DNA of 21,308 nucleotides, from positions 1 through 21,308 of IMG/VR virus record IMGVR_UViG_3300049595_001292. One strand, written 5' to 3'. Numbering within the stretch: the first letter of the stretch is position 1; every line of letters begins with the position of its first letter. Shown here piece after piece: positions 1 to 13,222 of this stretch. The notes under the pieces were generated by a model that saw only the letters and a program-made list of their open reading frames with translations, searched no databases and had not been told where the DNA came from. Source of the DNA: a virus. The position numbers were made by a program, and so were the translations under genes.

Positions 1-1
1 C

Positions 2-925
2 CTCTTTGATCAGTCGGATGATATTGCCGATGTCGTGCTTCATCACGCACCGCTTACTTCCGCACTTGACGATGCAGGGCGCGTTAAAAAGATTTCTGGT
101 GGTTATGAACTGCGTAAGCCCGTCATGTACAATGACGCTGCTGTAGGTGGATTCTACCAGGGATACCAGTCGTTCGATCTTAGTTCAATCGACGACCTTA
201 CAGCTTTCCGATTTGGCATCAAGCAGGTTTATGAGCCTGTTTCTATGTCAGGTCGTGAGCGTCGTGCTAACCGAGATGAGGCACAGCTTCTTGATCTTGC
301 TGAGGCAAAGATTGAGGCATCTATTTCCCGTCTGAAGAATACTGTTTCGTCTTCACTTCGAGGCGATGGAACTGGCTTCGGTGGAATGGAGTTCGACGGC
401 TTGAAGAAGGCAGTTTCGACTTCACCTTCGTCGGGAACATACGGAACTATCGACCGTTCAGCTAACATTTGGGCGCGTAACTACGCTACCAACGTAACGC
501 TTTCGGCTTCGAACGTTCAGGAGACAATCACGGATGTTATCAGCCGCTTAACTCGTGGCGATGAGCAGCCTGACCTTGGAATCATGGACCGTACTGCATG
601 GAAGTACCTCCACTCGTCATTGACTGCAATTCAGCGTATTCAGCTTCCCGTTAAGGAAGCAAAGGCTGGATTCCGCAAACTCTACTATGACGGTTGTGAG
701 TTTGTATTTGACGGTGGTTACGGTTCAAGCGTTCTTGAGACTAACTCATGCCGATTGCTCAATACTAAGTATTGGACATTTGACATGGTTCGAGGCGCTG
801 ACTTCAAGCCGCTTGCACCAACTATGGATCGCCCAGTAGATCAGGATGCTTTCTTCACCGTAATTCTCGTTGAAGGAAACCTTTGCTGCTCTGCTCCAGC
901 TCTCCAGGGTGTAATTTACGCTTAA
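2..925 (+). CDS. Major capsid protein, 5' end missing
   Basis: Forms the icosahedral head shell. The frame is open to the left edge (about 11 codons precede the GTG at 35), so the true start lies outside the window. About 307 residues are present. I recognise a capsid family of tailed phages by its pattern: an N-terminal stretch GRVKKISGGYELRKP followed by MYND, then FRFGIKQVYEPVSMSGRE, a long helix with LLDLAEAKIEAS, then the glycine-rich SLRGDGTGFGGMEFDGLKK and a GTYGTIDRSANIW segment that would sit in the A-domain region. It is followed at 16 nt by a decoration-like gene with a strong ribosome site, the usual order in head modules. The HK97-type fold is inferred from the family, not shown directly by the sequence. 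Confidence 0.9.
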   Translation, partial: LFDQSDDIADVVLHHAPLTSALDDAGRVKKISGGYELRKPVMYNDAAVGGFYQGYQSFDLSSIDDLTAFRFGIKQVYEPVSMSGRERRANRDEAQLLDLAEAKIEASISRLKNTVSSSLRGDGTGFGGMEFDGLKKAVSTSPSSGTYGTIDRSANIWARNYATNVTLSASNVQETITDVISRLTRGDEQPDLGIMDRTAWKYLHSSLTAIQRIQLPVKEAKAGFRKLYYDGCEFVFDGGYGSSVLETNSCRLLNTKYWTFDMVRGADFKPLAPTMDRPVDQDAFFTVILVEGNLCCSAPALQGVIYA

Positions 926-941
926 TAAGGAGGACTAGAGT

Positions 942-1427
942 ATGTCACAGGTAGGATCGTTTGGAGTTAATTACAAGAAGGTTTGGGATAGCACTTCAGC
1001 TATGCTTCCAGCTACAGTTGGAACAGTAGGGTCACTCGTCGAAGGCGAGTTTCTTTTTGTTCAGGCTGATGGAGCTATTGACCAGTATGGTTTCGTAAAA
1101 ATCGAAGCCGATGGTCAGGCTGCTATGCTCACCACTACTAATGCAGGTTCTCAGAATCTCACCGTTGGCGTAGCTCAAGTAGCTGCTGCTGACAATGAGT
1201 ACCTCTGGGTATGGATTGGTGGTGTAGCTGCTGGTGGAGCGACAAAGGGTATTAAGGGTAAGGCTGCTGCTTCATATGCTGCAAAAGCTAACCTGAATAC
1301 TACTGCTACCGCTGGTGTTGCTGACGATGCTTCGACTACGCTCATTAAGAACGTAGTTGGACTAGAGACGCTTACTGGTGCTGGAACAGTAAATCTGTTT
1401 TCAACAGGCCATTTGCGAGTCAACTAA
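942..1427 (+). CDS. Probable capsid decoration (cement) protein
   Basis: 161 residues, directly behind the capsid gene with a perfect AAGGAGG ribosome site. The protein is rich in Ala, Gly, Thr and Val and has no membrane segment or signal peptide. It reads as alternating short beta strands: an N-terminal GTVGSLVEGEFLFVQADG, a middle VGVAQVAAADNEYLWVWIGG and a C-terminal LFSTGHLRVN. This layout (a value that is 'fresh' with a default, followed by strand-rich Ala/Gly repeats) resembles the small trimeric cement proteins encoded next to capsid genes in many phages, including the DUF2190 type, but I cannot assign a named family with certainty. It would sit on the outer head surface. It could also be a head fibre base. 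It ends 4 nt before an intercistronic hairpin. Confidence 0.65.
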   Translation: MSQVGSFGVNYKKVWDSTSAMLPATVGTVGSLVEGEFLFVQADGAIDQYGFVKIEADGQAAMLTTTNAGSQNLTVGVAQVAAADNEYLWVWIGGVAAGGATKGIKGKAAASYAAKANLNTTATAGVADDASTTLIKNVVGLETLTGAGTVNLFSTGHLRVN

Positions 1428-1431
1428 TCAA

Positions 1432-1453
1432 ATGGGGGGTGAAGGCCCCCCAT
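1432..1453 (+). terminator. Intercistronic G/C hairpin 1
   Basis: ATGGGGGG, a 6-nt loop, then CCCCCCAT: a perfect 8-bp stem starting 4 nt after the decoration gene stop. It is followed by ATATTTGTG, not by a clear T tract, so it may be an attenuator or an mRNA-stabilising 3' end rather than a full terminator. It would shield very abundant capsid and decoration message from the less abundant messages downstream. Confidence 0.65.
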
Positions 1454-1467
1454 ATTTGTGAGGTCTT

Positions 1468-1788
1468 ATGCCATCAGTAACTAATCTTATTGGCTTGGGT
1501 ATGCCACCTGAGCAAGCAGCAGAGGTGTCAGACGGCACTTTTGCTGTAGTTACGTCAACCGCAGCGCTTGTTGCAACCGCTGCCGGACTGCGTACCAAAA
1601 TGGCAATCAACAACGTAAACGACACAACCCCAACAGCAGCAGAGCTTACCACTTCGTTTGGTACGCCAGCTTCAGTTGGTACAGGTTTTGTAGGTGTTGT
1701 TAAGGATGCTGATGTTGATACTAACTGCTATGTAGTTGTATCCAACGGTGTTTCTTACTTTTACCTAAAGTTTACTAAAGCCGTTTAG
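1468..1788 (+). CDS. Small virion-associated protein, unknown
   Basis: 106 residues, starting with MPSVTNLIGLGMPPEQAAEV, an N-terminal pattern (Asn-Leu-x-Gly-Leu-Gly-Met-Pro) that I have seen on short structural proteins in head regions of phages. The rest is strand-rich and polar, with VGTGFVGVVKDADVDTN and YVVVSNGVSYFYLKF near the end. There is no signal peptide, membrane segment or catalytic motif. It sits between two hairpins and two other small beta-rich proteins, which suggests a minor head protein or head fibre. Ribosome site GAGGTCTT is moderate. Function not known. Confidence 0.65.
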   Translation: MPSVTNLIGLGMPPEQAAEVSDGTFAVVTSTAALVATAAGLRTKMAINNVNDTTPTAAELTTSFGTPASVGTGFVGVVKDADVDTNCYVVVSNGVSYFYLKFTKAV

Positions 1789-1795
1789 TAACTAA

Positions 1796-1813
1796 GGGGG
1801 GAGTAATCCCCCC
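1796..1813 (+). terminator. Intercistronic G/C hairpin 2, terminator-like
   Basis: GGGGGGA, a GTAA tetraloop, then TCCCCCC: a perfect 7-bp stem 8 nt after the preceding stop, followed by AATTTTAT at 1814-1821. The short T tract makes this the most terminator-like of the three hairpins in this stretch. Its place just before a ribosome site means readthrough must occur for the downstream genes, unless a promoter that I cannot see lies in between. Confidence 0.65.
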
Positions 1814-1830
1814 AATTTTATAGGTGATTT

Positions 1831-2148
1831 ATGACGTGTTACGCAGGAAAAGCTACAGTTGCAACTCCAACTATCGCCACAGCTACTAGCACACAAGTAT
1901 TAGCTGCTAACCCATTTAGAAAGTATCTTTTAATCCAAAACAATAGTGCTGCTCACATAGGCATTGGGCTAAACGGTGAAACTTTAACAGGTATAGCCCC
2001 AACCAGCACCAACAAATGCATTAACGTGCCAAATAGCGATAATGCTAAAACTATAGTATTTCAAGGACAGTTTGTACCAAGTGGAGCGATTACGGCTTAC
2101 CAGACGTCTGGTGGAACGATCAATACGTTAGTCGTTATTGAGGGGTAG
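1831..2148 (+). CDS. Small beta-rich virion-associated protein
   Basis: 105 residues. After a Thr/Ala-rich N-terminus the core reads ANPFRKYLLIQNNSAAHIGIG, a strand pattern (Arg-x-Tyr-Leu-x-Ile-Gln-Asn-x-Ser) common in small phage virion proteins with a beta-sandwich fold. The C-terminus, VPSGAITAYQTSGGTINTLVVIEG, also reads as strands. There is no membrane segment. It is the third small head-region gene in a row and, like the other two, is followed by a hairpin. A minor capsid, head fibre or neck surface protein is the most reasonable guess; the exact role is unknown. Confidence 0.65.
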   Translation: MTCYAGKATVATPTIATATSTQVLAANPFRKYLLIQNNSAAHIGIGLNGETLTGIAPTSTNKCINVPNSDNAKTIVFQGQFVPSGAITAYQTSGGTINTLVVIEG

Positions 2149-2156
2149 TGCTATAA

Positions 2157-2182
2157 CTAGGTAGGCAACTATGCCTATTTAG
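2157..2182 (+). promoter_or_regulatory. Intercistronic hairpin 3, touching the next ribosome site
   Basis: TAGGCA, loop ACTA, TGCCTA forms a 6-bp core (2162-2177), extended by two G-U pairs and A-T, T-A, C-G to 11 bp. Its 3' arm takes in the first two bases of the AGGAG ribosome site (2181-2185) of the gene at 2193, so folding could damp that gene's translation. Unlike the two upstream hairpins it is not G-run based and has no T tract. Confidence 0.5.
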
Positions 2183-2192
2183 GAGAATAATT

Positions 2193-2864
2193 ATGGCAAA
2201 TATAGACTGGAGCAGCATCATGTCCGGTAATAGCCAACCCAAGAAGCGGTACCAGGGGGCTAATATCAAGTTCTTTTTCGCTTACAACGAGAACGAGGAA
2301 AAGTCGCTGCGTGAGGGACGGCCAATATTCGATGAAATCCCATCGATCAGTATCCAGTGGCCTGGTGGAGATGAGACAGTAAGACGCATTGAACCACAGG
2401 ATATTCAGGAATACCCCGAACTTTATAGTCGGTTTCAAGCTGGTAGTGAGCCAGTAGCCGATGGTACTCCGTTAGCTGAATGGTCGCTTATGACTGGCTC
2501 TGCTATGCGTGAATTGCAGTACCTTGGGTTTAAGACAGTCGAGCAGTTAGCTAATGGTTCTGACGAAGCAAAACGAAAACTTGGCTCATTGTCTAAGTTT
2601 GTTAAATTGGCTCAAGATTGGCTTGCAGCAGCTAAGTCAGATCAGAACGAAGTAGTAAAACTCAAACAGCTTTTGGAAAAGTCGGAGACTCGTACTAAGG
2701 CACTTGAGGAGAAGATGGAACTGCTCCTTCAGCGAATCGAGGCAAATGAGGGGACTGATTTGCGGTCGTATCGCAGAGAGTTAATTCAGCCGGTAGAGCT
2801 TGACGATGTAACCGATGATGTAATGGATGAGCCTCGACGCCGAGGACGACCAAGGAAAGTATGA
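2193..2864 (+). CDS. Head-region protein with coiled coil and C-terminal AT-hook
   Basis: 223 residues. The N-terminal part reads as a compact domain with FFFAYNENEEKSLREGRPIF and a Trp-Pro-Gly-Gly-Asp-Glu turn; a conserved middle follows with GTPLAEWSLMT and LGFKTVEQLAN. From about residue 150 to 185 there is a leucine-heptad coiled coil (KLKQLLEKSETRTKALEEKM). The tail is acidic, then ends in the basic RRRGRPRKV, a textbook AT-hook core (Gly-Arg-Pro at 218-220). Similar proteins sit in head modules of other phages; no function is established that I know of. A scaffold-like or DNA-contacting inner head role is possible. The ATGA overlap with the next gene implies coupled translation. Confidence 0.7.
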   Translation: MANIDWSSIMSGNSQPKKRYQGANIKFFFAYNENEEKSLREGRPIFDEIPSISIQWPGGDETVRRIEPQDIQEYPELYSRFQAGSEPVADGTPLAEWSLMTGSAMRELQYLGFKTVEQLANGSDEAKRKLGSLSKFVKLAQDWLAAAKSDQNEVVKLKQLLEKSETRTKALEEKMELLLQRIEANEGTDLRSYRRELIQPVELDDVTDDVMDEPRRRGRPRKV

Positions 2865-3724
2865 GCATAGCCACGGTTATACAAAATGTAGCAAACGAAG
2901 CGGGCTATACGGTTGAGTCAAATATATTTACTTCAACCGAAACAACTACCAAGCAGCTTCTTGCCATTGCACAACGTATTAACCGTGACATTTTTGAGGC
3001 GTATCCTTGGCCTAAATGTTACGCTTCAGGGTCAATAACGCTGGTAGGGGGCCAAGCAACCTATGCTCTACCAGCAGCTTTTTCCCGCTATCAATACGAA
3101 ACATTTTGGAATCAAAGCACTCGGTGGCGCGTTCTTGGCCCTATGAGCGAACAAGAATATGCAGAGATTCGTGGCTTTGGACTTGAACCTACAATTTACC
3201 AGCGGTTTCAAATTCGAGGATTAAGTAACACTGAACTGCTAATCAACCCTACGCCTGGAGCTAACAATAACGGCGATACCCTTATCTTTCAGTATATCGC
3301 AGACCGGTCAGTAGTGCCTGTAACATGGTCGAGCGGAGTGGTTTTCGCTGCTAACACATACTGTTTTTACAACGGCAACTACTACGTTACTACCGTAGGA
3401 GGCACTACAGGAGCCACAGCACCGACGCACACGAGCGGTTCGGTGTCTGATGGTGGCGTAACGTGGACTTATTATAACGGGCCTTACAACGAGTTTAGAG
3501 CCGATACAGACACCTCCATATTTCAGGAGAAATTACTTGAGCAAGGGATGTTAGAGCGCTTTGGTGAAATCCATGGCTTAGAAAGCATTAAGCCAGTTTT
3601 TCAGCAACAGGTGCATGAAGAGTTTGGTAGAACTTTGTCAGGTAAAGTTATTTGGGCAGGTGGAGCAACCAGACCGCTTCAATATGCTCGTAATGGTGTA
3701 GCTATGTTTGGGACGTGGATATAA
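2861..3724 (+). CDS. Podophage neck/adaptor-like protein with inserted surface module
   Basis: 287 residues. The start is helical (VIQNVANEAGYTV, LLAIAQRINRDIFEAYPWP), followed by a strand-rich part with GQATYALPAAFSRY and later LLINPTPGANNNGDTLIFQY. This sequence of features (paired N-terminal helices, Tyr-Pro-Trp-Pro, Tyr-x-Leu-Pro-x-x-Phe, Pro-Thr-Pro) matches the neck or head-completion proteins of podophages, which join portal and tail and keep DNA inside. A module of about 55 residues (about 155-208) with Trp at both ends and a GTTGATAPTHTSGSVSDGG core is inserted, then the helical C-terminus resumes at YNEFRADTDTSIFQE. Similar to P22 gp4 or T7 gp11 by place and size, but the relationship is inferred. 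The frame continues to the stop that overlaps the next ATG. Confidence 0.7.
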   Translation: MSIATVIQNVANEAGYTVESNIFTSTETTTKQLLAIAQRINRDIFEAYPWPKCYASGSITLVGGQATYALPAAFSRYQYETFWNQSTRWRVLGPMSEQEYAEIRGFGLEPTIYQRFQIRGLSNTELLINPTPGANNNGDTLIFQYIADRSVVPVTWSSGVVFAANTYCFYNGNYYVTTVGGTTGATAPTHTSGSVSDGGVTWTYYNGPYNEFRADTDTSIFQEKLLEQGMLERFGEIHGLESIKPVFQQQVHEEFGRTLSGKVIWAGGATRPLQYARNGVAMFGTWI

Positions 3725-5283
3725 TGCAAGAACCAACGATTACACAAAAAGACCCTATTGCTTATTACCGATGGTTACGGTCCCAGCGAATGTCTGGTGC
3801 CCAAGCTACTCAACTTGTAGAGCAGCGATTTGGCCCACCGACAACGCCTGAGGAGCGTAATCAACGACAGCAAGCGGCAAACGAAAATGCTGCTTTGGCT
3901 CAGGCTGGTGGATTGGTTGGTGGCGCTGTAGCTACTAATTGGGCAATGCAAGGTTTCAAAACTCCTGAATGGATGAAAAGCACCCCTACAACTACACCAA
4001 CAACTACGACTACAGCACAAGTGCCACCAACTACAGCAACTCCCGTAACTGGAGGATTTGGTAGTACCGCAGAGATGGTTGGTAACGGAATGTCTACTCC
4101 ATTCAAGCCCGAAGTTGTGGCGACTAATGGAGATGTTTCCATCATAAAGACACCGACCGGTGGAACTACTCAAGTGCCAACCGAGGCGTTGAATGACCCA
4201 GGTTTTATGAGTTCCGTTAATTGGAACGCCGTCGGTGCCGGTGCTATTTCTGCGTTGCAAGCATATCAGGCGTATAAGGCATATCAATCAGGCGATAAGT
4301 TGGGTGCTGGCATTTATGGGGCAGGTGCTATTGCTTCTGGCGCCGCCGCAGCAAATGCTGCTAACGCTGGCTTTGCTGGTTCTCAAACAATGGGAGCAGC
4401 TGCTCCTTATTTAGGTATTGCAGCCGGTGCCTATGGTGGTTATCAAACCGCAAAAATGATTGGAGATACCGCAGCAGGTTCTCAGCGTAACCAACAGGGA
4501 GCGCTGCAAGGAGCTTCATCAGGTGCGCTAATAGGCGGTAGTATTGGAAGCATTGTGCCAGGTCTTGGTACTGGAATCGGTGCTGCTATTGGTGCTGTTG
4601 TTGGAGGTGCTGCTGGCTTAGTTGGTTCGTGGACTGGAAGCTCAAAAGGTAAAGCTCAGTTTATGCGTGATAACATCCGCAAGGTCATGCAGGAAGGTGG
4701 CATCCTTGATCAGAACTATCAAGGCACGTTGGCTGACGGAACTACCTATGACTTTGGTACGGATGGTAAGGCGCTACGTTGGAAAGAAATTGATAAAATT
4801 TCGTCGGCTCAACCTAAAGCCTGGAATAGCGCAGTTCCTCTCGCCGATGCGTTGGCTTCCTCTTATGGCTTGGTAGGTCAAAAGGCATCGGATCTTGCGG
4901 CTTGGTATTCACGAGCCGCTGTAAGTAATGCAAAGAACGATTCGAACGTTGCCATAGCGAATATGCGACACTTTGCAGCACAGCAAGGACTTACATATGA
5001 CCTTGTAAAAACGAAACTTGATGAGGCAATCAAAGACAATCGAATTTCTCAATCTCAGTACGATTATTACCTTAACGGCGCATCGCAACTTGTAGGGCAG
5101 GGAGGGGCAATGCAAGCGACTGTACAACGTCCTGAAAAGGGTAAGGTAGCTCGCGTATCTCCTGGCATGTACATGAATGACAAAGGCAAGGTATCGGCAG
5201 CAAAAACAGTTCGTCAGGCATTAGAAATCAATTACAAAAAAACGAATAGTAAGTCCGACCAACCCAGTAAAAAACGTAAGTAA
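3724..5283 (+). CDS. Glycine-zipper virion protein, probable ejection protein
   Basis: 519 residues from the ATG in the TAATG overlap with the previous stop. A GTG three codons earlier is possible but the one-base overlap is used again at 5814 and 10301. Order of parts: short charged N-terminus; Pro/Thr linker with a run of threonines (about 85-110); Ala-rich helical region; a Gly/Ala/Ile segment (about 255-305) containing SGALIGGSIGSIVPGLGTG and IGAAIGAVVGGAAGLVGSW, a glycine-zipper type that can insert into membranes; a helical domain; and a C-terminal peptide RVSPGMY (477-483) before a Lys-rich tail. This makes it a good candidate for a protein that leaves the head with the DNA and helps it across the cell envelope. 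I recognise no catalytic motif. Confidence 0.65.
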   Translation: MQEPTITQKDPIAYYRWLRSQRMSGAQATQLVEQRFGPPTTPEERNQRQQAANENAALAQAGGLVGGAVATNWAMQGFKTPEWMKSTPTTTPTTTTTAQVPPTTATPVTGGFGSTAEMVGNGMSTPFKPEVVATNGDVSIIKTPTGGTTQVPTEALNDPGFMSSVNWNAVGAGAISALQAYQAYKAYQSGDKLGAGIYGAGAIASGAAAANAANAGFAGSQTMGAAAPYLGIAAGAYGGYQTAKMIGDTAAGSQRNQQGALQGASSGALIGGSIGSIVPGLGTGIGAAIGAVVGGAAGLVGSWTGSSKGKAQFMRDNIRKVMQEGGILDQNYQGTLADGTTYDFGTDGKALRWKEIDKISSAQPKAWNSAVPLADALASSYGLVGQKASDLAAWYSRAAVSNAKNDSNVAIANMRHFAAQQGLTYDLVKTKLDEAIKDNRISQSQYDYYLNGASQLVGQGGAMQATVQRPEKGKVARVSPGMYMNDKGKVSAAKTVRQALEINYKKTNSKSDQPSKKRK

Positions 5284-5295
5284 AATGGTGAGCAT

Positions 5296-5814
5296 ATGGA
5301 AAAAGGCAAATTACTAAAGGGTGCGCTTACAAAGGCTCCAAAAGAAAAACCAGTTCAAAGGGTATCGCCTGGAGTTTACCGTGGTGAGAAAGGCAATCTC
5401 GTAACTTCAAAAGGACGAGTACTGCCAAAACCTTCACAACCAACGCCTCAACAAGTAGGTAATGCAATTGGTCAATTGACCCCGATGCCTCAACAAGTAG
5501 GTGATGTAGTGGACCAACTAAGACCGATGGGGAATTGGAATCAATCCCCCATGCTAATAACTGAACAACAACCGAACTTGGGCCCATTGTATACGCCAAT
5601 GACACCTGCACAGGTGGGTCAAAGTGTTGCACAGATACAACCAGGAATTGCAAATTTGCGTGGAAATTGGGAACCTCAACCATCGGCAAACCAAGGTGGT
5701 AAATACAGATTGTCGCCAGGAGTGTATGGCACTCGTGAGCAAGCCATTCAGCAACAATTAGACTTTCTTAAAAACACTCTAGCTCAAGGTCAAGCTAACA
5801 AACGTAGATACTAA
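5296..5814 (+). CDS. Repeat protein of the virion region with two SPGVY peptides
   Basis: 172 residues, basic, low complexity and rich in Gln, Pro and Gly; no membrane segment. Two copies of the R-[VL]-S-P-G-V-Y peptide bracket it: RVSPGVY at 22-28 and RLSPGVY at 138-144. Between them are three copies of a short unit: PQQVGNAIGQLTPM, PQQVGDVVDQLRPM and PAQVGQSVAQIQPG. The last two are followed by a second shared piece, GNWNQSP and GNWEPQP. The C-terminal 25 residues form a Gln-rich helix ending in RRY. A flexible linker or adaptor among virion proteins is my inference. Family unknown. ATG has a weak GGTGAG ribosome site; the stop overlaps the next start (TAATG). Confidence 0.7.
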   Translation: MEKGKLLKGALTKAPKEKPVQRVSPGVYRGEKGNLVTSKGRVLPKPSQPTPQQVGNAIGQLTPMPQQVGDVVDQLRPMGNWNQSPMLITEQQPNLGPLYTPMTPAQVGQSVAQIQPGIANLRGNWEPQPSANQGGKYRLSPGVYGTREQAIQQQLDFLKNTLAQGQANKRRY

Positions 5815-7358
5815 TGGCGTTTCAAGGTACTACCATGCCTGGTCCATACTTAGGGCTCGACCTCGTGAGCCCTATTGATAATATGGACCCTGCAACGGCA
5901 TTAAAATTGATAAACATTTTCCCAGGAGCAAACAGTCCTGCTTTACGGGCAGGGTATGAATCGTTTGCTACAGTAGGCTCAGGAACGCCTATAACTTTTT
6001 TGCAATCACTTAATTTAGCCGATGGCTCATCGAGATTGATTGCTGGCAATTCGAGTGCGTTGTTTTCAGTAACTACAAGTGGAACACCTACAACGATTAC
6101 TGGCTCGACCGTTACCAACGGAGAGTGGCAAAGCACAACGTATAATAATCGAATTTACCTGTGTAACGGAGTTGATTCGGCCCGCAGTTGGGATGGCATT
6201 GCAGCAACTACCAGCAACCTTACCTTTACTGGACTAGCACTGACGTCAATGATTGGTGTTCACGCTCATAAAGAGCGATTGTACTTTATTGAAAAAAATA
6301 GTTGTAAAATTTGGTATGGCGGTGTTCAGGTTACGGGGACTGGTGGAAGTCCAGCATTAACAAGTTTTGATTTAAGTTATGTAATGACTCGTGGTGGATT
6401 TGTAGTTGCATTGGGCAGTTACAGCAATACTACTAGCATGACATCACAAGATTATTTTTGGGCATGTAGCTCCGAAGGTGAAATAGTATTTTACACTGGA
6501 ACCTACGCTGGCGACCCTACCACATGGGGGTTGGTAGCTCGCTATTATATTGGTCGGCCACTCGGTCGTAGAGCCTTTGTACGTGTAAACAATGACGTTT
6601 GGATTGTTACTGAACAGGGAATTGTCCCCATTTCTGGACTATTTCAATCCGACCCAGAAGCTGCACTAAACATTCTCAGTCGCAGAATCAATCCGTTAAT
6701 AAGTGAAGCAGCTAAGTTATTCCCTTTCAACTATGCGTGGAGTGGGTTTTTTTGGCCGCAAGGTAGGGCCGTTTATTTTGCTATTCCCGTTAGCACCGTC
6801 GGATGTCATTTATTGGTTTATGCAATTGATCAAAAAGCCTGGACTCTTTTCCAGTTGTACGACGACTCCCATTGTTTGAGTTCTTGTTTATTCAACAAAC
6901 TACCGTTTTACGGTTCCAATCAAGGACGAATATGGAAAGGAGAAACTGGTCCGGCAGATGCTAGAATAGGGTCAATCGATCAATACATAAGTTTTGATTG
7001 CACTCTTCCGTACAGTTTTTATCAAACCCGAAACAACTATAAAACCTTTAAAGATATTCGAGCTATCATTCAAGCAGCGCCCACAATTAAGGTGGGTATT
7101 GTTCTTGATACGGATTTTCGACCGGTTCAAACACTTGTAAAACCCATAAGCAGCTCAACTGTTTTGACGACTTGGGGTAGCCCTTGGGGTTCCCCTTGGT
7201 CTGGGGCATCAGTTGCTTCCGGTTCATACAGCTTTGACCGCTATTCTTTAAAAGGCCAAGGCCATGCCGCTTCTATTCGATTTGGCGGTTTCGTAAAAAC
7301 ACAAAATTTGCAAATACTAGGATTCGAGGTTAGGTATGAAATTGGTGGACAGGTGTAA
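5814..7358 (+). CDS. Podophage tail nozzle / DNA-stabilisation-like protein
   Basis: 514 residues, almost entirely beta strands. The N-terminus, GPYLGLDLVSPIDNMDPATA followed by LKLINIFPGANSPALRAGYE, is the usual opening of podophage tail proteins of the T7 gp12 / P22 gp10 type (x-Gly-Leu-x-Leu, Asn-x-x-Pro, Arg-x-Gly). The central part has propeller-like repeats such as NRIYLCNGVDSARSWDG, KERLYFIEKNSCKIWYGG and NDVWIVTEQGIVPISG, and the last 150 residues are again strand-rich with paired Trp-Gly-Ser-Pro-Trp. Such proteins form the lower tail tube that holds DNA and carries the fibres. Function assigned from fold pattern and neighbours, with no specific ligand recognised. Confidence 0.7.
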   Translation: MAFQGTTMPGPYLGLDLVSPIDNMDPATALKLINIFPGANSPALRAGYESFATVGSGTPITFLQSLNLADGSSRLIAGNSSALFSVTTSGTPTTITGSTVTNGEWQSTTYNNRIYLCNGVDSARSWDGIAATTSNLTFTGLALTSMIGVHAHKERLYFIEKNSCKIWYGGVQVTGTGGSPALTSFDLSYVMTRGGFVVALGSYSNTTSMTSQDYFWACSSEGEIVFYTGTYAGDPTTWGLVARYYIGRPLGRRAFVRVNNDVWIVTEQGIVPISGLFQSDPEAALNILSRRINPLISEAAKLFPFNYAWSGFFWPQGRAVYFAIPVSTVGCHLLVYAIDQKAWTLFQLYDDSHCLSSCLFNKLPFYGSNQGRIWKGETGPADARIGSIDQYISFDCTLPYSFYQTRNNYKTFKDIRAIIQAAPTIKVGIVLDTDFRPVQTLVKPISSSTVLTTWGSPWGSPWSGASVASGSYSFDRYSLKGQGHAASIRFGGFVKTQNLQILGFEVRYEIGGQV

Positions 7359-7360
7359 TT

Positions 7361-9274
7361 ATGGCAAATCCTAGTGTTTGGGCGCGGCAAAGTCCTGGCG
7401 TTTATAAAGACCAATACGGCAACGTTGTCAAAAGTCCAAAACCACCAACTCAAAATATGGCACCTAAACCGAAGCAAACGGTTAAGCCAACAACACCCAG
7501 CAAAACCCCGCCGGTACAAACACCAGCACCGTCAAATTCACCAGAACCATTCAATTTTAACAGGGCTGAAACTCGAATTGAGTATTTAAAAAGAGTTCGT
7601 CCAAATGACCCTGAAATTAAAGAACTGACGAAACGCATTGCCGCAGCTAGGAAAGCCGAAGGTGGTTCTACAACAACTCCTCCAGCAGCAGGTCAGCCAG
7701 GTTCATCTCAACCAGACCCATCACAGGGTATGGGAGCATTTTGGAAAGAACCGACAGTACAACCACCCACTGCTACTTGGCCTGTAGGTGGCACGCCTTC
7801 ACAGCCGATTGAATATAAACCAGCTTGGCCTGGTCCTAGCACCCCGCCAACAGGGGCTTTATCAGCAATGCCATCCGCTGAAACCGGCACTCCAACTTCG
7901 CAACCTGCTGGCACTATGCCTCCACCTAACACGGTTTCAACGCAAATTGAGCCGCCTGGTTTCCAGCCTATTGCACCTACCCCGCCGACCTCACAGCCAC
8001 AACCAGCCGTAACGCCATCTCCTCAACCGGTGGCAGCCGCTCCACAAATATCGCCAATGAAGCCAGCATCAGGAGGTGCGCTTAATACTGAACCCTCTCA
8101 AGAAGCAGCTACACCACCTCCACCTGTAGCTCAACCTGCACCTGCGCCTGTGCCACCGACGCCTCCCGTTACGCCTACAACGGAAACTCCTGCTCCTGCT
8201 CCTATGCCTACCCAACCATCGACGACACTACCTCCACCGTTGGGAGAGAACATTAACAGATTTACGAGCGCGGCAGGTTCGGCTTATGAAAACCTAGTTA
8301 ATAGGTTTAACACGTCCGACCCGTATCAAATGCAAGCACAGTATAATCCTGTGTTTACTGCGGAAATGGAGAGACAACGCAATCGCGTTATGAGCGAATT
8401 TGAACGTCGAAACGCCGAAGAATTTCAACGTCAAAATGAAAGCACTCAATTACAAATTGCAGAGCGTGGGTTAGATCCTAACAGCCCTGCTGCTCAAGCG
8501 ATAATGAAGGCAAATACTCAGCGACAAGACCTTATGCGACAAGAGGCGCTTAGCGCCGCCGAAGGTATTGCATTACAAGCTCAAGCTCAATTTGCAAACC
8601 AAGCTGCTCAGTTTGGCAATATGCCGTATGAGCAATTTCAGGCTATTCAAGCTCCCCTCATGGCTGGGGTGCAAGGGTACTACACTGGTCAGGAAAGTAC
8701 TGCTCAACGAGAATTTCAACGAGGGGAAAGAGTTGGGACGCAGCAGTATCAAGCTGAACAATCAGCGATTGATCGTGCATTGCAAGTTACGGAAGCGGAG
8801 AAAGGACGAGCCTTTACTGGTGAGCAAGCCGAAATTGTCAGACGTTATGAAAGTGGCGAAGCTGCTGCAAACAAAAGTTTTCAAGCTATGCAAGCTGATA
8901 TTGACCGTCAGTTCCAATCAGTTATGCAAGCTGCTGGCTTTAGTTTCCAAGCACAGCAAGGCGTTCTTGAACGTCAATTTGAAGCAGCAAAGCAGGATTT
9001 CGTGGTGCGAAATCAACGTGAAATGACAGATAACGAAGCTAAAGCTGCTATGACGCGATTAAAAGCTGAACTTAAAAATAGAATTCAAATTGCAAGGATT
9101 GGCTCCCGTTCTAGCGGGGGAAGTGCTGCAAACCCAGACGCAGCGAGTGATGCGTTTTATGATGCACAAATTAATTCAAGTTACGGGCAAGGTGGGACGA
9201 AGCCAAATCTTGGAGCGGCAGCAGCACAAGGTGCTACAGCAGGTGCCGGTAACGTACTAACAAGAGGGCGATAA
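7361..9274 (+). CDS. Proline-rich, Ala/Gln-rich coiled virion protein
   Basis: 637 residues in two clear halves. Residues 1-30 carry RQSPGVY (9-15), the peptide shared with two upstream genes. Residues about 30-290 are a flexible linker of Pro, Thr, Gln and Ala, broken by one helical island (RAETRIEYLKRVRP to AARKAE). From about 300 the protein is long helix, very rich in Ala, Gln and Glu, with repeating Phe/Tyr-Gln-x-x-x-x steps such as SFQAMQADIDRQFQSVMQ. A Gly/Ser-rich tail follows. No membrane segment and no enzyme motif. Position between the nozzle-like gene and the ejection-like genes suggests a virion protein, probably an internal or tail-associated structural protein. Family unknown to me. 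Confidence 0.65.
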   Translation: MANPSVWARQSPGVYKDQYGNVVKSPKPPTQNMAPKPKQTVKPTTPSKTPPVQTPAPSNSPEPFNFNRAETRIEYLKRVRPNDPEIKELTKRIAAARKAEGGSTTTPPAAGQPGSSQPDPSQGMGAFWKEPTVQPPTATWPVGGTPSQPIEYKPAWPGPSTPPTGALSAMPSAETGTPTSQPAGTMPPPNTVSTQIEPPGFQPIAPTPPTSQPQPAVTPSPQPVAAAPQISPMKPASGGALNTEPSQEAATPPPPVAQPAPAPVPPTPPVTPTTETPAPAPMPTQPSTTLPPPLGENINRFTSAAGSAYENLVNRFNTSDPYQMQAQYNPVFTAEMERQRNRVMSEFERRNAEEFQRQNESTQLQIAERGLDPNSPAAQAIMKANTQRQDLMRQEALSAAEGIALQAQAQFANQAAQFGNMPYEQFQAIQAPLMAGVQGYYTGQESTAQREFQRGERVGTQQYQAEQSAIDRALQVTEAEKGRAFTGEQAEIVRRYESGEAAANKSFQAMQADIDRQFQSVMQAAGFSFQAQQGVLERQFEAAKQDFVVRNQREMTDNEAKAAMTRLKAELKNRIQIARIGSRSSGGSAANPDAASDAFYDAQINSSYGQGGTKPNLGAAAAQGATAGAGNVLTRGR

Positions 9275-9275
9275 T

Positions 9276-10301
9276 ATGGCCGATTTATTAGTTAACGCCT
9301 TAACTGGATTGAATTACAATCAGCAAGAAACGCCTTGGGGCATTGCTCAGTCGAGTCTTAACACATTAACTCCTCAGTTGATCACGCCCTACACTTCGAC
9401 TGGTCGCGCTGTCGGTGTAGGTCTTGGTTCAATCCTGCTGCAATCTTTGCTTGGCTATCAGGCTAGGCAGCAAGCCGCACAGGATACATTGGCAGTAAAC
9501 AGCCTAGCTAATCAGCTTCAGACTTTAGAAACGCCACAGGCTCGCACAGATTTTATTAAGGGCGTTGGAGACACCGGCTACCAAAGTCGTTTGTCCAACT
9601 TGGCTACTGCATTGACGGCACAGGAAACGGCTAGAAAAGCTAAGGCCGAAGATAAAATGTTGGAATTGATGACAGGCTATAAAGCTCAATTATCCCCAGA
9701 GGGAACTGAAGTGTTTGAGCGTGAGCAACAATCATTGCTTGATAGAGCTTTGCAACAAGCGGCAGCTAGTAGACAACCACAAAATCAACAATTACCAACT
9801 GGTGTGCAAGAAAGAATTGTTGATGCTTCTACATTTTCTGAAGCGGCGGCAGCCCACCGCAACAAAATAGCTGAAATGTCGCCAGCAGAACTAAAAACTT
9901 TGCTCACGACTGGAACTAGCATGTTCGGTTTAGTAGGCGAACCAGGATTTGTGCCCGAAAATGAAGCAATAATACAGTTGTACAGAAAAGCAAATTTTGG
10001 AGCTACACTTACGGGACAGGAGAAAAAAGCTGCTGATATAATTACTGGTAAAACTTTTACCGCTTCCAAAGCTGATATTTTAGCGGCTTGGGATACTTTA
10101 ATCGATCAAAGCAATAAACGTGCTAAACGCACCATCGAAGTCGCAACTAAATCTCCCAATACTATTCAAGAGATGTTTGGTGCCCCTGTCGCGGCTACGC
10201 CAACCACGCCAATCGCAACAACTCCGGACAATGACAAATTAAAAATATTACAACAGCTTCAAGCCGAAATAGCAGCGGAAAAAGCCAGAAGGGGTCGCTA
10301 A
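9276..10301 (+). CDS. Helical virion protein, probable internal/ejection protein
   Basis: 341 residues, mainly helices, Ala/Gln/Leu/Thr rich. One moderately hydrophobic piece lies near 45-60 (GRAVGVGLGSILLQSLLGY). Helical segments follow (LSNLATALTAQETARKAKAE and others). The C-terminus has a Pro/Thr linker and then LKILQQLQAEIAAEKARRGR, a short charged helix similar in type to one at the start of the next protein. No catalytic motif. It starts 1 nt after the stop of the previous gene (TAATATG), and its stop overlaps the next ATG by one base. Grouped by position with podophage internal proteins that move into the cell with DNA; this is inference. Confidence 0.6.
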   Translation: MADLLVNALTGLNYNQQETPWGIAQSSLNTLTPQLITPYTSTGRAVGVGLGSILLQSLLGYQARQQAAQDTLAVNSLANQLQTLETPQARTDFIKGVGDTGYQSRLSNLATALTAQETARKAKAEDKMLELMTGYKAQLSPEGTEVFEREQQSLLDRALQQAAASRQPQNQQLPTGVQERIVDASTFSEAAAAHRNKIAEMSPAELKTLLTTGTSMFGLVGEPGFVPENEAIIQLYRKANFGATLTGQEKKAADIITGKTFTASKADILAAWDTLIDQSNKRAKRTIEVATKSPNTIQEMFGAPVAATPTTPIATTPDNDKLKILQQLQAEIAAEKARRGR

Positions 10302-13222
10302 TGGATGAACTTGACGCGGCAATAGAAGCAGCACGAGCAGAACTGGCGGCATTAAAAGCACAACCAGAACAGCCTTCATACGGTGTCGGGCAACTTTTGT
10401 ATGATATTCCTGTTGGGGTAGCAAAAGCCGGTGCTGGTGCAGCAGATATTGTAGCGTATCCATTTGTAAAAGGATTGGAATATCTGGGCGCTCCTGTCGA
10501 ACCCTGGGGAACTACAAAAACATTGGAAGCAGTCAGCGAGCAATTAGCACCATCTTTCGGAGTGCGGCCAGAAACAGGCGCTCAAGAATTAGTTAGTTTT
10601 TTAACTCCTTCCCCTGCTTCGAAAGCTAAATTATTGAGTCAAGCTGGAACTGGTTTGGTTTCGTATTTGGGCATGAAAGGAGCAGAGGCTATTGCGCCAG
10701 AATCTCCTTATGCTGGTTTAGTAGGCGCATTAGCGGCTCCTGCCACGGTTGCTGGAGTAGGTAAAGCTGTTGGCGCTGGTACGCGATTAGTATCACCCGC
10801 TGTTGGTGTTGCAGTTGGAAGTGAAGATGCTTTACAGGCAGCAGCGCAAGCAGAGATATTGCGTCAAGCAGGTCCTGAAGGAATCGAGCGTTTAAAAGCA
10901 TTGCAAGATATGCCAGAACTTGCAGTTGGAACAGGAAATGTTCCTCTTACAGCAGCGGAAATCGTACAAACACCTGGCCTTGCACAATACCAGCAGGAAA
11001 TTGGTAAAAAACTAGGGGCTACTGACATATTGCAAGCAGCCAAGGAACAACGTGGGATAGAGTTAAAAGCAGCGTTAAATCGTTTTGGTGTAGATACCGA
11101 AACTGGTGATTTTGCTTTAGCCTTAAGAGATGCTGCGGAAGAGGCAGTCAAAAAGAAAGCCGCAAGCGAAGGAAACATTTTACAGTCTCTTGGCCTGACT
11201 GAAGAAGGGAAGGCTGTTAGTAAATTGGAGCGTGGGGCGACGCTTCGAGAGGCAATAAATACCCGTTTAGAACAAGCTGATGACCTTGTATCGGGCGCTT
11301 GGAGCGCTGTTCCAAAATCAACAAAACTCGACCTAACCGGAGCCTTAAACGAAACTTTGCGTGAATATGCTCAGTTCGGAGAACTTGCTAAAGCCGATGT
11401 ATCAGGCAAAGCACAGCGAGTAATGGACAAAGTACGCGAAATAGTTCAGGCCAAAAATGGCGTTGCAACAGTTGGTGAGTTGCAAGATTTACGATCAGCC
11501 GCAGGTCGAGCTATGGCTGAAGCGAGTGGGGTCAACAAAACGCAAGCCGCGTTAATGGCAACATTACGCGACAACATAGATAACTTTGGAATAAGTTATT
11601 TCTATGATCCAGCCGTGGGCATAAAAGGGGGACTGCCTGGAACTGCTGCAACAGCACCAGACCTTGAAGCATTGCAAAAATTAAGCAAAGCAGTAGACCT
11701 TACACGCGAGTTGAAACAAACATTTAATACTGGTGTAGTAGGTGAAATTACTGCGACACGACGATTTCAACCGCGCCTCCAAACCAGCAAAGTTATTGAT
11801 CGTGCATTAGCAAGTCCAGAAAATGCACAAGATATTATTAACAAGTTTGGCCGCACTTCTGTTGAAGTAACAGAGATGCGAATGGAAATGCTAGCTAGAC
11901 TTGATAAAGCGACAAACCCAACCGACTTTTTAGGAAGAAATAAAGATACATTAAAAGCACTGTTTGATACCGATTATGAGGCTTTAAACAAGTTTGCCCA
12001 ACAGAAAGGACGCGGCACGGGGTTAGAGCAGTTTGAACGTATTACTGAAAGCAAAATACCAAACAAAGTATTTGCTGATGTTCGTCAGGCCGATGCGTTT
12101 ATGAAACAGTTTCAAGGTACTGAACTTGAACAATACGCTCGTGCCAAGTTTATAAATACCAACCTGACAAAAACGGGCAATGCTGTTGCAAACCTTGAAG
12201 CTAACAAAAAGATAGCTCAACGATTGTTTGCTGCTGATTACGATGACCTACAAAAAGTACTAACTGACCTGGAATTAGCTAAGAGTCCTGCTGAACTTGC
12301 AAAAGCAGCTAGTAAAGGTCAGGCAATAACATCCCAAAGTTTAACAACACTTGGTGCCATTGCAGCAAGTCGTGGTGTTATTGCGACTATGAAGCAACAA
12401 GGCCCAACATCAGGCGGTATCATTGGAGCTTTGACCGGCGGGGGCATTGGAGGTTTAATTGGTGCCGGAACTGGAGCGGCTATAAGCAAAGCAGGACAAT
12501 CGCGAGAATTGCAGCTTGATACGATTGTCGCAAGGATGCTTGCAAACCCAAGACTAATGAAGCTTGCTGCTGCTGCACCAACTGAAACCAACATAAATCG
12601 CTTTTTGGAATTGAGCCAAACTCTTCAGCGCGGTGGGATTGCAGCAGCGCCGGAAACAACTGAGCAATTCTCCGTACAACCTACTGAAGAGGGGAATACA
12701 GCGGTCAACATAGATGCAGCGATTGAGGAAGCTCAACGTGAACTTGAAATGCTTCGTGCAGAAACAAACACGGAAAGTCCTAAGCCAACTGTGGAGATTG
12801 GCAGACAGAAAATCAACATACCCACCGGCGAAAACTACGCATCGCCAGATTTGGTAAAAGCTGTAATTCGTGCTGAGTCAGCCGGTAATCCAAAGGCGGT
12901 GAGCGAAAAAGGTGCTGGTGGTTTAATGCAGCTTATGGCTGGGACTGCTCGTGATCTTGGCCTCACACCGAAACAAAGATTTGACCCAGTTAAAAACGTA
13001 GAAGCTGGTAGTCGTTATTTGCAACAGCAGATTGAAAAGTTTGGCTCGATTGAAGCAGCACTAGCGGCATATAACTGGGGGCCACGGAATATAGCTAAGG
13101 CTAAAGCAAAGTTAGAGTCTGAAGGTTTGCCGGTAACATGGGAAAACATTAAAAAGGCAGTCAAAGTACCTGGCGAAACAAAAGCGTACGTGAACACAGT
13201 ATTAAAGTATTTAGAAGCATAA
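10301..13222 (+). CDS. Large ejection protein with C-terminal lytic transglycosylase
   Basis: 973 residues. The final 135 form a lysozyme-like SLT domain: AVIRAES with catalytic Glu859, then GNPKAVSEKGAGGLMQLM and ALAAYNWGP, the three usual motifs of soluble lytic transglycosylases. It would cut peptidoglycan locally to let the DNA through the wall. Upstream are long helices, and a glycine-rich hydrophobic segment (about 705-732, GGIIGALTGGGIGGLIGAG) able to enter a membrane. A short charged helix, DAAIExAxxEL, occurs at residue 5 and again at residue 805, just before the SLT domain. Length and layout match podophage internal core proteins such as T7 gp16 in kind, but no clear relationship outside the SLT part is claimed. 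Confidence 0.85.
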   Translation: MDELDAAIEAARAELAALKAQPEQPSYGVGQLLYDIPVGVAKAGAGAADIVAYPFVKGLEYLGAPVEPWGTTKTLEAVSEQLAPSFGVRPETGAQELVSFLTPSPASKAKLLSQAGTGLVSYLGMKGAEAIAPESPYAGLVGALAAPATVAGVGKAVGAGTRLVSPAVGVAVGSEDALQAAAQAEILRQAGPEGIERLKALQDMPELAVGTGNVPLTAAEIVQTPGLAQYQQEIGKKLGATDILQAAKEQRGIELKAALNRFGVDTETGDFALALRDAAEEAVKKKAASEGNILQSLGLTEEGKAVSKLERGATLREAINTRLEQADDLVSGAWSAVPKSTKLDLTGALNETLREYAQFGELAKADVSGKAQRVMDKVREIVQAKNGVATVGELQDLRSAAGRAMAEASGVNKTQAALMATLRDNIDNFGISYFYDPAVGIKGGLPGTAATAPDLEALQKLSKAVDLTRELKQTFNTGVVGEITATRRFQPRLQTSKVIDRALASPENAQDIINKFGRTSVEVTEMRMEMLARLDKATNPTDFLGRNKDTLKALFDTDYEALNKFAQQKGRGTGLEQFERITESKIPNKVFADVRQADAFMKQFQGTELEQYARAKFINTNLTKTGNAVANLEANKKIAQRLFAADYDDLQKVLTDLELAKSPAELAKAASKGQAITSQSLTTLGAIAASRGVIATMKQQGPTSGGIIGALTGGGIGGLIGAGTGAAISKAGQSRELQLDTIVARMLANPRLMKLAAAAPTETNINRFLELSQTLQRGGIAAAPETTEQFSVQPTEEGNTAVNIDAAIEEAQRELEMLRAETNTESPKPTVEIGRQKINIPTGENYASPDLVKAVIRAESAGNPKAVSEKGAGGLMQLMAGTARDLGLTPKQRFDPVKNVEAGSRYLQQQIEKFGSIEAALAAYNWGPRNIAKAKAKLESEGLPVTWENIKKAVKVPGETKAYVNTVLKYLEA

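Follow-up and report, generated by a model that had tools for sequence, protein, structure and literature searches.

A short peptide module recurs in three genes around the nozzle gene of podophages and probably acts as a docking micro-domain

The usual annotation of small disordered phage proteins is "hypothetical", and no route by which they enter the particle is known. In phage T4, the capsid targeting sequence (CTS) is cleaved, and T4-type internal proteins also have cleaved leaders. The foldon of T4 fibritin is a β-hairpin mini-domain of about 27 residues at the end of the protein. The CTS itself is a short conserved peptide that otherwise diverse particle proteins have in common and through which they enter the particle (PMC3012670). 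An ejection-protein review, screened for its statements on motifs, contains none on a shared peptide motif (PMC8954989).

The window, i.e., the whole stretch of DNA that was analyzed, is a 21.3-kb virus record with a podophage-like gene order: capsid, small genes, an SU10-type adaptor, a glycine-zipper protein (GZ), a small protein (SP), the nozzle (phrog_5107), a post-nozzle protein (PN), a 341-aa protein, a 973-aa SLT-domain protein, and a long tail-type protein. For GZ and PN, the names follow from composition, the order of the genes, and weak matches to profiles. GZ had a Gly-zipper match in Pfam under the cut-off of that family and weak PHROG matches to tail lysin and internal virion protein. 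PN itself matched a DNA pilot protein once and weakly, and 14 of 34 PN relatives matched phrog_6121, "virion structural protein". GZ, PN, and the SLT protein give the impression of an ejection block, and we infer that GZ, SP, and PN are all particle proteins. A glycine-zipper-like stretch, GGIIGALTGGGIGGLIGAGTG, can also be read in the SLT protein itself (10301-13222).

The initial annotation had reported four copies of R-x-S-P-G-[VM]-Y in three neighboring virion genes. All four copies were recovered in the window (Table 1), and three of them are followed, after four further residues, by Gly-Asn or Gly-Lys, as had been described. The three genes are indeed close neighbors, but the nozzle gene separates the second from the third. 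At the DNA level, the window contains four matches to the motif versus none in 100 shuffles, and at the protein level four versus a mean of 0.0001 in 20,000 protein shuffles. Together with a reversed-codon control scan (see below), the shuffles rule out a chance origin of the repeat.

Table 1. Genes and sequence elements of the module-bearing region, in coordinates of the window
Feature	Position	Strand	Remarks
GZ, glycine-zipper protein	3724..5283	+	519 aa; GTG at 3715 is a possible alternative start; bears the module at its C-terminus
GZ module copy, ARVSPGMYMNDKGKVSA	5149..5199	+	residues 476-492; predicted strands 476-479, 482-484, 490-492
GZ core, RVSPGMY	5152-5172	+	residues 477-483, numbered from ATG 3724
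GZ C-terminal helix, VRQALEINY	5209..5235	+	residues 496-504; right behind the module
SP, small protein	5296..5814	+	172 aa; mostly disordered in the AlphaFold2 model; low column identity among relatives
SP second tag, GALTKAP	5320..5340	+	residues 9-15
SP N-terminal module copy, QRVSPGVYRGEKGNLVTSKGRV	5356..5421	+	residues 21-42; pLDDT about 91-94 across residues 21-40
SP N-terminal core, RVSPGVY	5359-5379	+	residues 22-28
SP C-terminal short form, RLSPGVY	5707..5727	+	residues 138-144; followed by a predicted helix, 147-165
Nozzle/neck protein	5814..7358	+	phrog_5107; without module; annotated relatives are "phage stabilization protein" or "tubular tail B"
PN, directly 3' of the nozzle gene	7361..9274	+	637 aa; Pro-rich, coiled-coil-like; PHROG matches of relatives
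PN N-terminal module copy, WARQSPGVYKDQYGNVV	7379..7429	+	residues 7-23; core RQSPGVY at 7385-7405 (residues 9-15)
PN second N-terminal element, RAETRIEYLKRVRPNDPEIKEL	7562..7628	+	common to many PN relatives and the unrelated-nozzle lineage L102

The heptapeptide, which had been taken as the unit, turned out to be the core of a module that is about three times longer. The first relatives were found via the nozzle alone (25 loci, most of them about 60% identical), and in those loci the gene directly before the nozzle, where covered, contains R[VL]SPG[VI]YRNxxGQLVxSxGxxLP. The extended module reads R-[VL]-S-P-G-[VMIL]-Y-[RKM]-[NDG]-x-x-G-[QNK]-[LV] and has a size of about 17–26 residues. A degenerate pattern for SPGVYRxxxGxL was used to scan 2.9 million viral contigs. 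The true pattern was found in 81 contigs and the codon-order-reversed control in none, so that the motif is enriched in the database, a point on which the initial annotation had staked its proposal. A version of the pattern with AGY serine codons yielded 14 further matches. In bacterial genome contigs, eight matches were obtained, which were judged to be mostly due to chance.

In SP, the mean column identity across 43 relatives was only 15%, whereas the module columns were more than 90% conserved, and conservation in this protein is limited to the module. All six Arg codons and all four Gly codons occur at invariant positions of the module. Because these codons vary freely, selection acts mainly on the peptide, and a DNA-level element was ruled out as the main cause. 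The codon usage of the invariant Pro (e.g., 5161-5163 in the window) was conspicuous in its own right: CCT is used in 75–84% of the GZ, SP N-terminal, and PN copies versus 50% of the other Pro-Gly pairs of the same phages, with values that are uncorrected for kinship.

The module had no match in Pfam, PHROG, the PDB, or the literature. The module peptides did not match PHROG at E values up to 10, and no PHROG match was found for 43 SP members. For the SP of the window, Pfam returned only a chance-level match to Cas3_C (E 0.042), which is below the cut-off. When the module profile was compared with PDB sequences, no foldon chain was retrieved at E values up to 10, and the best matches were a β-glucanase and a flagellin (E 0.45–1.3). 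By sequence, the module could be assigned neither to the foldon nor to another solved structure. The string SPGVY occurs in no phage paper of an open-access library. Turning to the carriers, GZ and PN had no sequence match of note to solved ejection proteins in the PDB, and a fold search with GZ led to two proteins of uncultured phages and, in the PDB, to unreliable matches only. Cultured phages (50,697 phage records) yielded no relatives of GZ, SP, or PN, with the exception of a microvirus pilot protein, to which PN had one short match (11% of its length).

As the pattern scan favors loci with the motif, a motif-independent set of 80 loci was drawn with a nozzle alignment. The frequency of the module differed between the three genes. 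SP carried it in 77 of 78 nozzle-selected contigs, the sole exception being cut by the contig end, the C-terminus of GZ in 48 of 76, and the N-terminus of PN in 9 of 73. In nozzle-type podophage loci, the module profile matched only the C-terminus of GZ, the N-terminus of PN, the N-terminal part of SP, and, as a short form that reads RLSPGVYG[TS]REQA, the C-terminal part of SP. The motif does lie near protein ends. In the surveyed 4–21 kb of the nozzle-selected contigs, no other recognized gene scored above the threshold, except for one 42-aa frame. The C-terminal copy of SP was present only in nozzle clusters whose GZ also bears the module (8 of 10 clusters versus 0 of 2; P 0.09 in a Fisher test), which is only suggestive of a tie between the two. 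The module has been gained and lost independently between the three genes. It is absent from the sister lineage L198, which has related nozzle and GZ-type genes, and from more distant podophages with related nozzles, among them the cultured ones that were covered. Sister lineages of this kind show that the module is not required for this gene architecture.

Structure prediction gave similar pictures for two of the carriers. In the AlphaFold2 model of SP (43 sequences), the pLDDT was below 50 over most of the protein and rose above 90 only at the N-terminal module (Table 1). Its strands are predicted at QRVS, VYR, and LV, and a helix is predicted behind the second copy. The model of GZ (48 sequences) places its strands, ARVS, MYM, and VSA, in register with those of SP, with a pLDDT of about 90, and a helix follows. 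GZ proteins that lack the module still have a SIRDVLQ-type helix. GZ and SP are thus predicted to share one small meander of three strands; both models are single-chain predictions to which the alignment of the module itself contributed, and their agreement is a matter of consistency and not of proof. The module would comprise a strand (xR[VL]S), a Pro-Gly turn, a second strand ([VM]Y[RM]), an NxxG turn, and a third strand ([LV]V).

The initial annotation had also considered a processing tag. A proteolytic tag or cleavage site would fit the location of the motif near protein ends and would have a parallel in the leaders of the T4-type internal proteins. However, the module is predicted to be folded, with a pLDDT near 90, and conserved sequence runs on at both sides of it. 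Cleavage would discard the conserved helices (VRQAL, TREQA) behind the C-terminal copies, and many SP copies are situated 20–70 residues inside the protein. Processing is thus very improbable, and this part of the earlier proposal was abandoned.

A second explanation is that the modules bind one another. As a foldon-like mini trimerization or cross-strand domain, they would let GZ, SP, and PN assemble together, with no third partner involved. The size, the Pro-containing lead-in, and the β-hairpin with Y-x4-G spacing resemble mini-assembly domains, and most genomes have two or more copies in different proteins. On the other hand, SP alone carries a copy within the surveyed region of some genomes (for example, L152, L159, and L169), a situation that favors docking on a third partner, although a homo-oligomer of one protein would still be compatible with it. 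The PDB comparison, in which no foldon-bearing chain was matched, also speaks against homotypic assembly. We regard it as rather unlikely, but as the main rival; the explanations by processing and by recombination are weak.

The N-termini of SP and PN turned out to have more in common than the module. Behind a short basic start, a second tag, [GTS]A[LM]xx[DEN]P, is found in 50 of 53 SP (94%) and 63 of 72 PN proteins (88%), but in at most 6% of 12 other gene families of the same phages. The description of the carriers as otherwise unlike each other is thus valid within the window, but not for the SP and PN families, which have this second signature in common. The PN of the window has lost the second tag; its start, PSVWARQSPGVYKDQYGN, is apparently the counterpart of PSVWRRTGPGTYVDQYGN, which PN relatives have at this place. 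With the second tag and further recurring elements, the SP and PN tails appear to be strung together from short elements that can be exchanged. The GNW hairpin of marine PN proteins was considered as a diverged module copy; a comparison of the two profiles was not significant (P 0.11).

Several of these further elements were noted in passing. RxxYLKRVRPNDPEIKRL, with a helical RPNDPEIKRL part, occurs in PN proteins of both nozzle lineages (for the window see Table 1). A third recurring SP element, [VMF]YxGG[ST]xxF[DN]ExTGxY, was seen in L063, L077, L081, L095, L168, and other loci, and it is also present in another podophage lineage (L207). The GZ of L198 has near its end YMAGGSPQG, which resembles it.

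One related locus, L007, provides a natural replacement experiment. Its DNA is 95.6% identical to the window at 1-3932 and 99.5% from 5710 on, including the nozzle, but between 3932 and 5710 most of GZ and SP have been replaced, and the proteins are only 41% (GZ) and 54% (SP) identical. All three module copies were kept despite the replacement. The 3' half of the adaptor is also more diverged between the window and L007.

Exchange of this kind raises the possibility that the module is a relic or mobile sequence, scattered by gene-end duplication and recombination and without a function of its own. The partly homologous appearance of the SP and PN N-termini would be in line with such an origin, as would the swap of GZ and SP, one junction of which is located inside the C-terminal motif of SP. 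But the module residues persist while their flanks fall to about 15% identity, and the codon data point towards purifying selection in the module. In addition, the end-points of near-identical stretches are not concentrated at the modules (5 seen versus 6.1 expected, 205 end-points), and the candidate role as a recombination hot-spot was rejected. It is improbable that the module is such a relic.

The module is not restricted to this lineage. In two podophages of another lineage, L102 and L208, it was found in two or three proteins, i.e., in SP-like and PN-like proteins and, in L102, also in the protein at the GZ position. The nozzle of L102 belongs to phrog_578 and is unrelated to the nozzle family of the window. 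Furthermore, six contigs encode a λ-J-like tail protein (about 1,200 aa; phrog_31, phrog_5616) that has the module close to its N-terminus. This case represents one protein family that was found by the motif scan, and its module may have arisen by convergence. Two more J relatives (48–53% identical), which were found without the motif, keep the module as TRVSPGIYRTATGKL and TYLSPGVYRTPSGGL. In all, eight contigs have the module at the extreme N-terminus of a λ-J-like central tail fiber protein. The nozzle of the window as the only partner cannot account for a module that also occurs alongside an unrelated nozzle and in a J-like protein of a siphophage. It is possible, albeit doubtful, that the module serves tailed phages in general as a plug-in docking micro-domain. 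In this case, one β-meander on flexible ends would be reused by neck or ejection proteins of podophages whose nozzles belong to two unrelated families, as well as by the N-terminal end of a siphophage J-like tail protein, and genes would exchange it as a connecting part.

The J-like proteins also bear on a role after ejection, in which the module would bind, instead of a site in the virion, either a protein of the host envelope or one that is ejected as well. The resemblance of GZ, PN, and the SLT protein to an ejection block, the glycine zipper of GZ, and the single weak DNA pilot protein match of PN are compatible with this idea. However, the near-constant carrier is the disordered SP, and in known phages the N-terminal part of the J-like tail protein, where the module is also located, is particle-bound. 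A role after ejection therefore appears unlikely.

We favor, with some confidence, the view that the module is a portable docking micro-domain on flexible protein ends, which would anchor several virion proteins to one partner. It would clip GZ, SP, and PN to one common surface, probably in the neck or the portal-proximal interior. In this way, the glycine-zipper, the small disordered, and the post-nozzle coiled-coil proteins could be built in together. SP, in which almost nothing else is conserved and which can carry two copies, might serve as a tether. The initial annotation had suggested a short docking peptide for a common partner. This is the best-supported reading, as the module is conserved, has a predicted fold, is located on flexible ends, moves between genes, and survives the swap of GZ and SP; the partner and the binding are still conjectural. 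A common plug, if it exists, would reveal which proteins enter the particle together and at what location, and with it as a tag, proteins of choice could possibly be loaded into phage particles. The module is a concrete marker for the poorly understood neck/ejection block of uncultured podophages.

Comparison with known systems revealed partial likenesses. The podophages of the Sulfitobacter phage phiGT1 type have a related nozzle (about 27% identical) and the same order of adaptor and nozzle, but they lack the GZ and SP genes in between as well as the module. The podophage ejection proteins (P22 gp7/gp16/gp20, T7 gp14-16) resemble GZ and PN in their operon place near the adaptor, the nozzle, and the SLT-domain protein and in glycine zipper and coiled-coil content, but the PHROG matches are only weak or partial. 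The fibritin foldon is likewise a mini-domain at a protein end, and a hairpin or meander is predicted in the monomer models of the module; however, the profile search showed no sequence likeness between the two, and genomes with a single copy exist, within the surveyed region. The CTS of T4 is N-terminal, whereas the module is also found C-terminally (in GZ and as the second SP copy near the C-terminus) and internally, and it is predicted to form a β-meander. Nevertheless, like the CTS, it is a short peptide common to otherwise unlike, presumably particle-borne proteins, GZ, SP, and PN, and SP and PN have an N-terminal tag in common.
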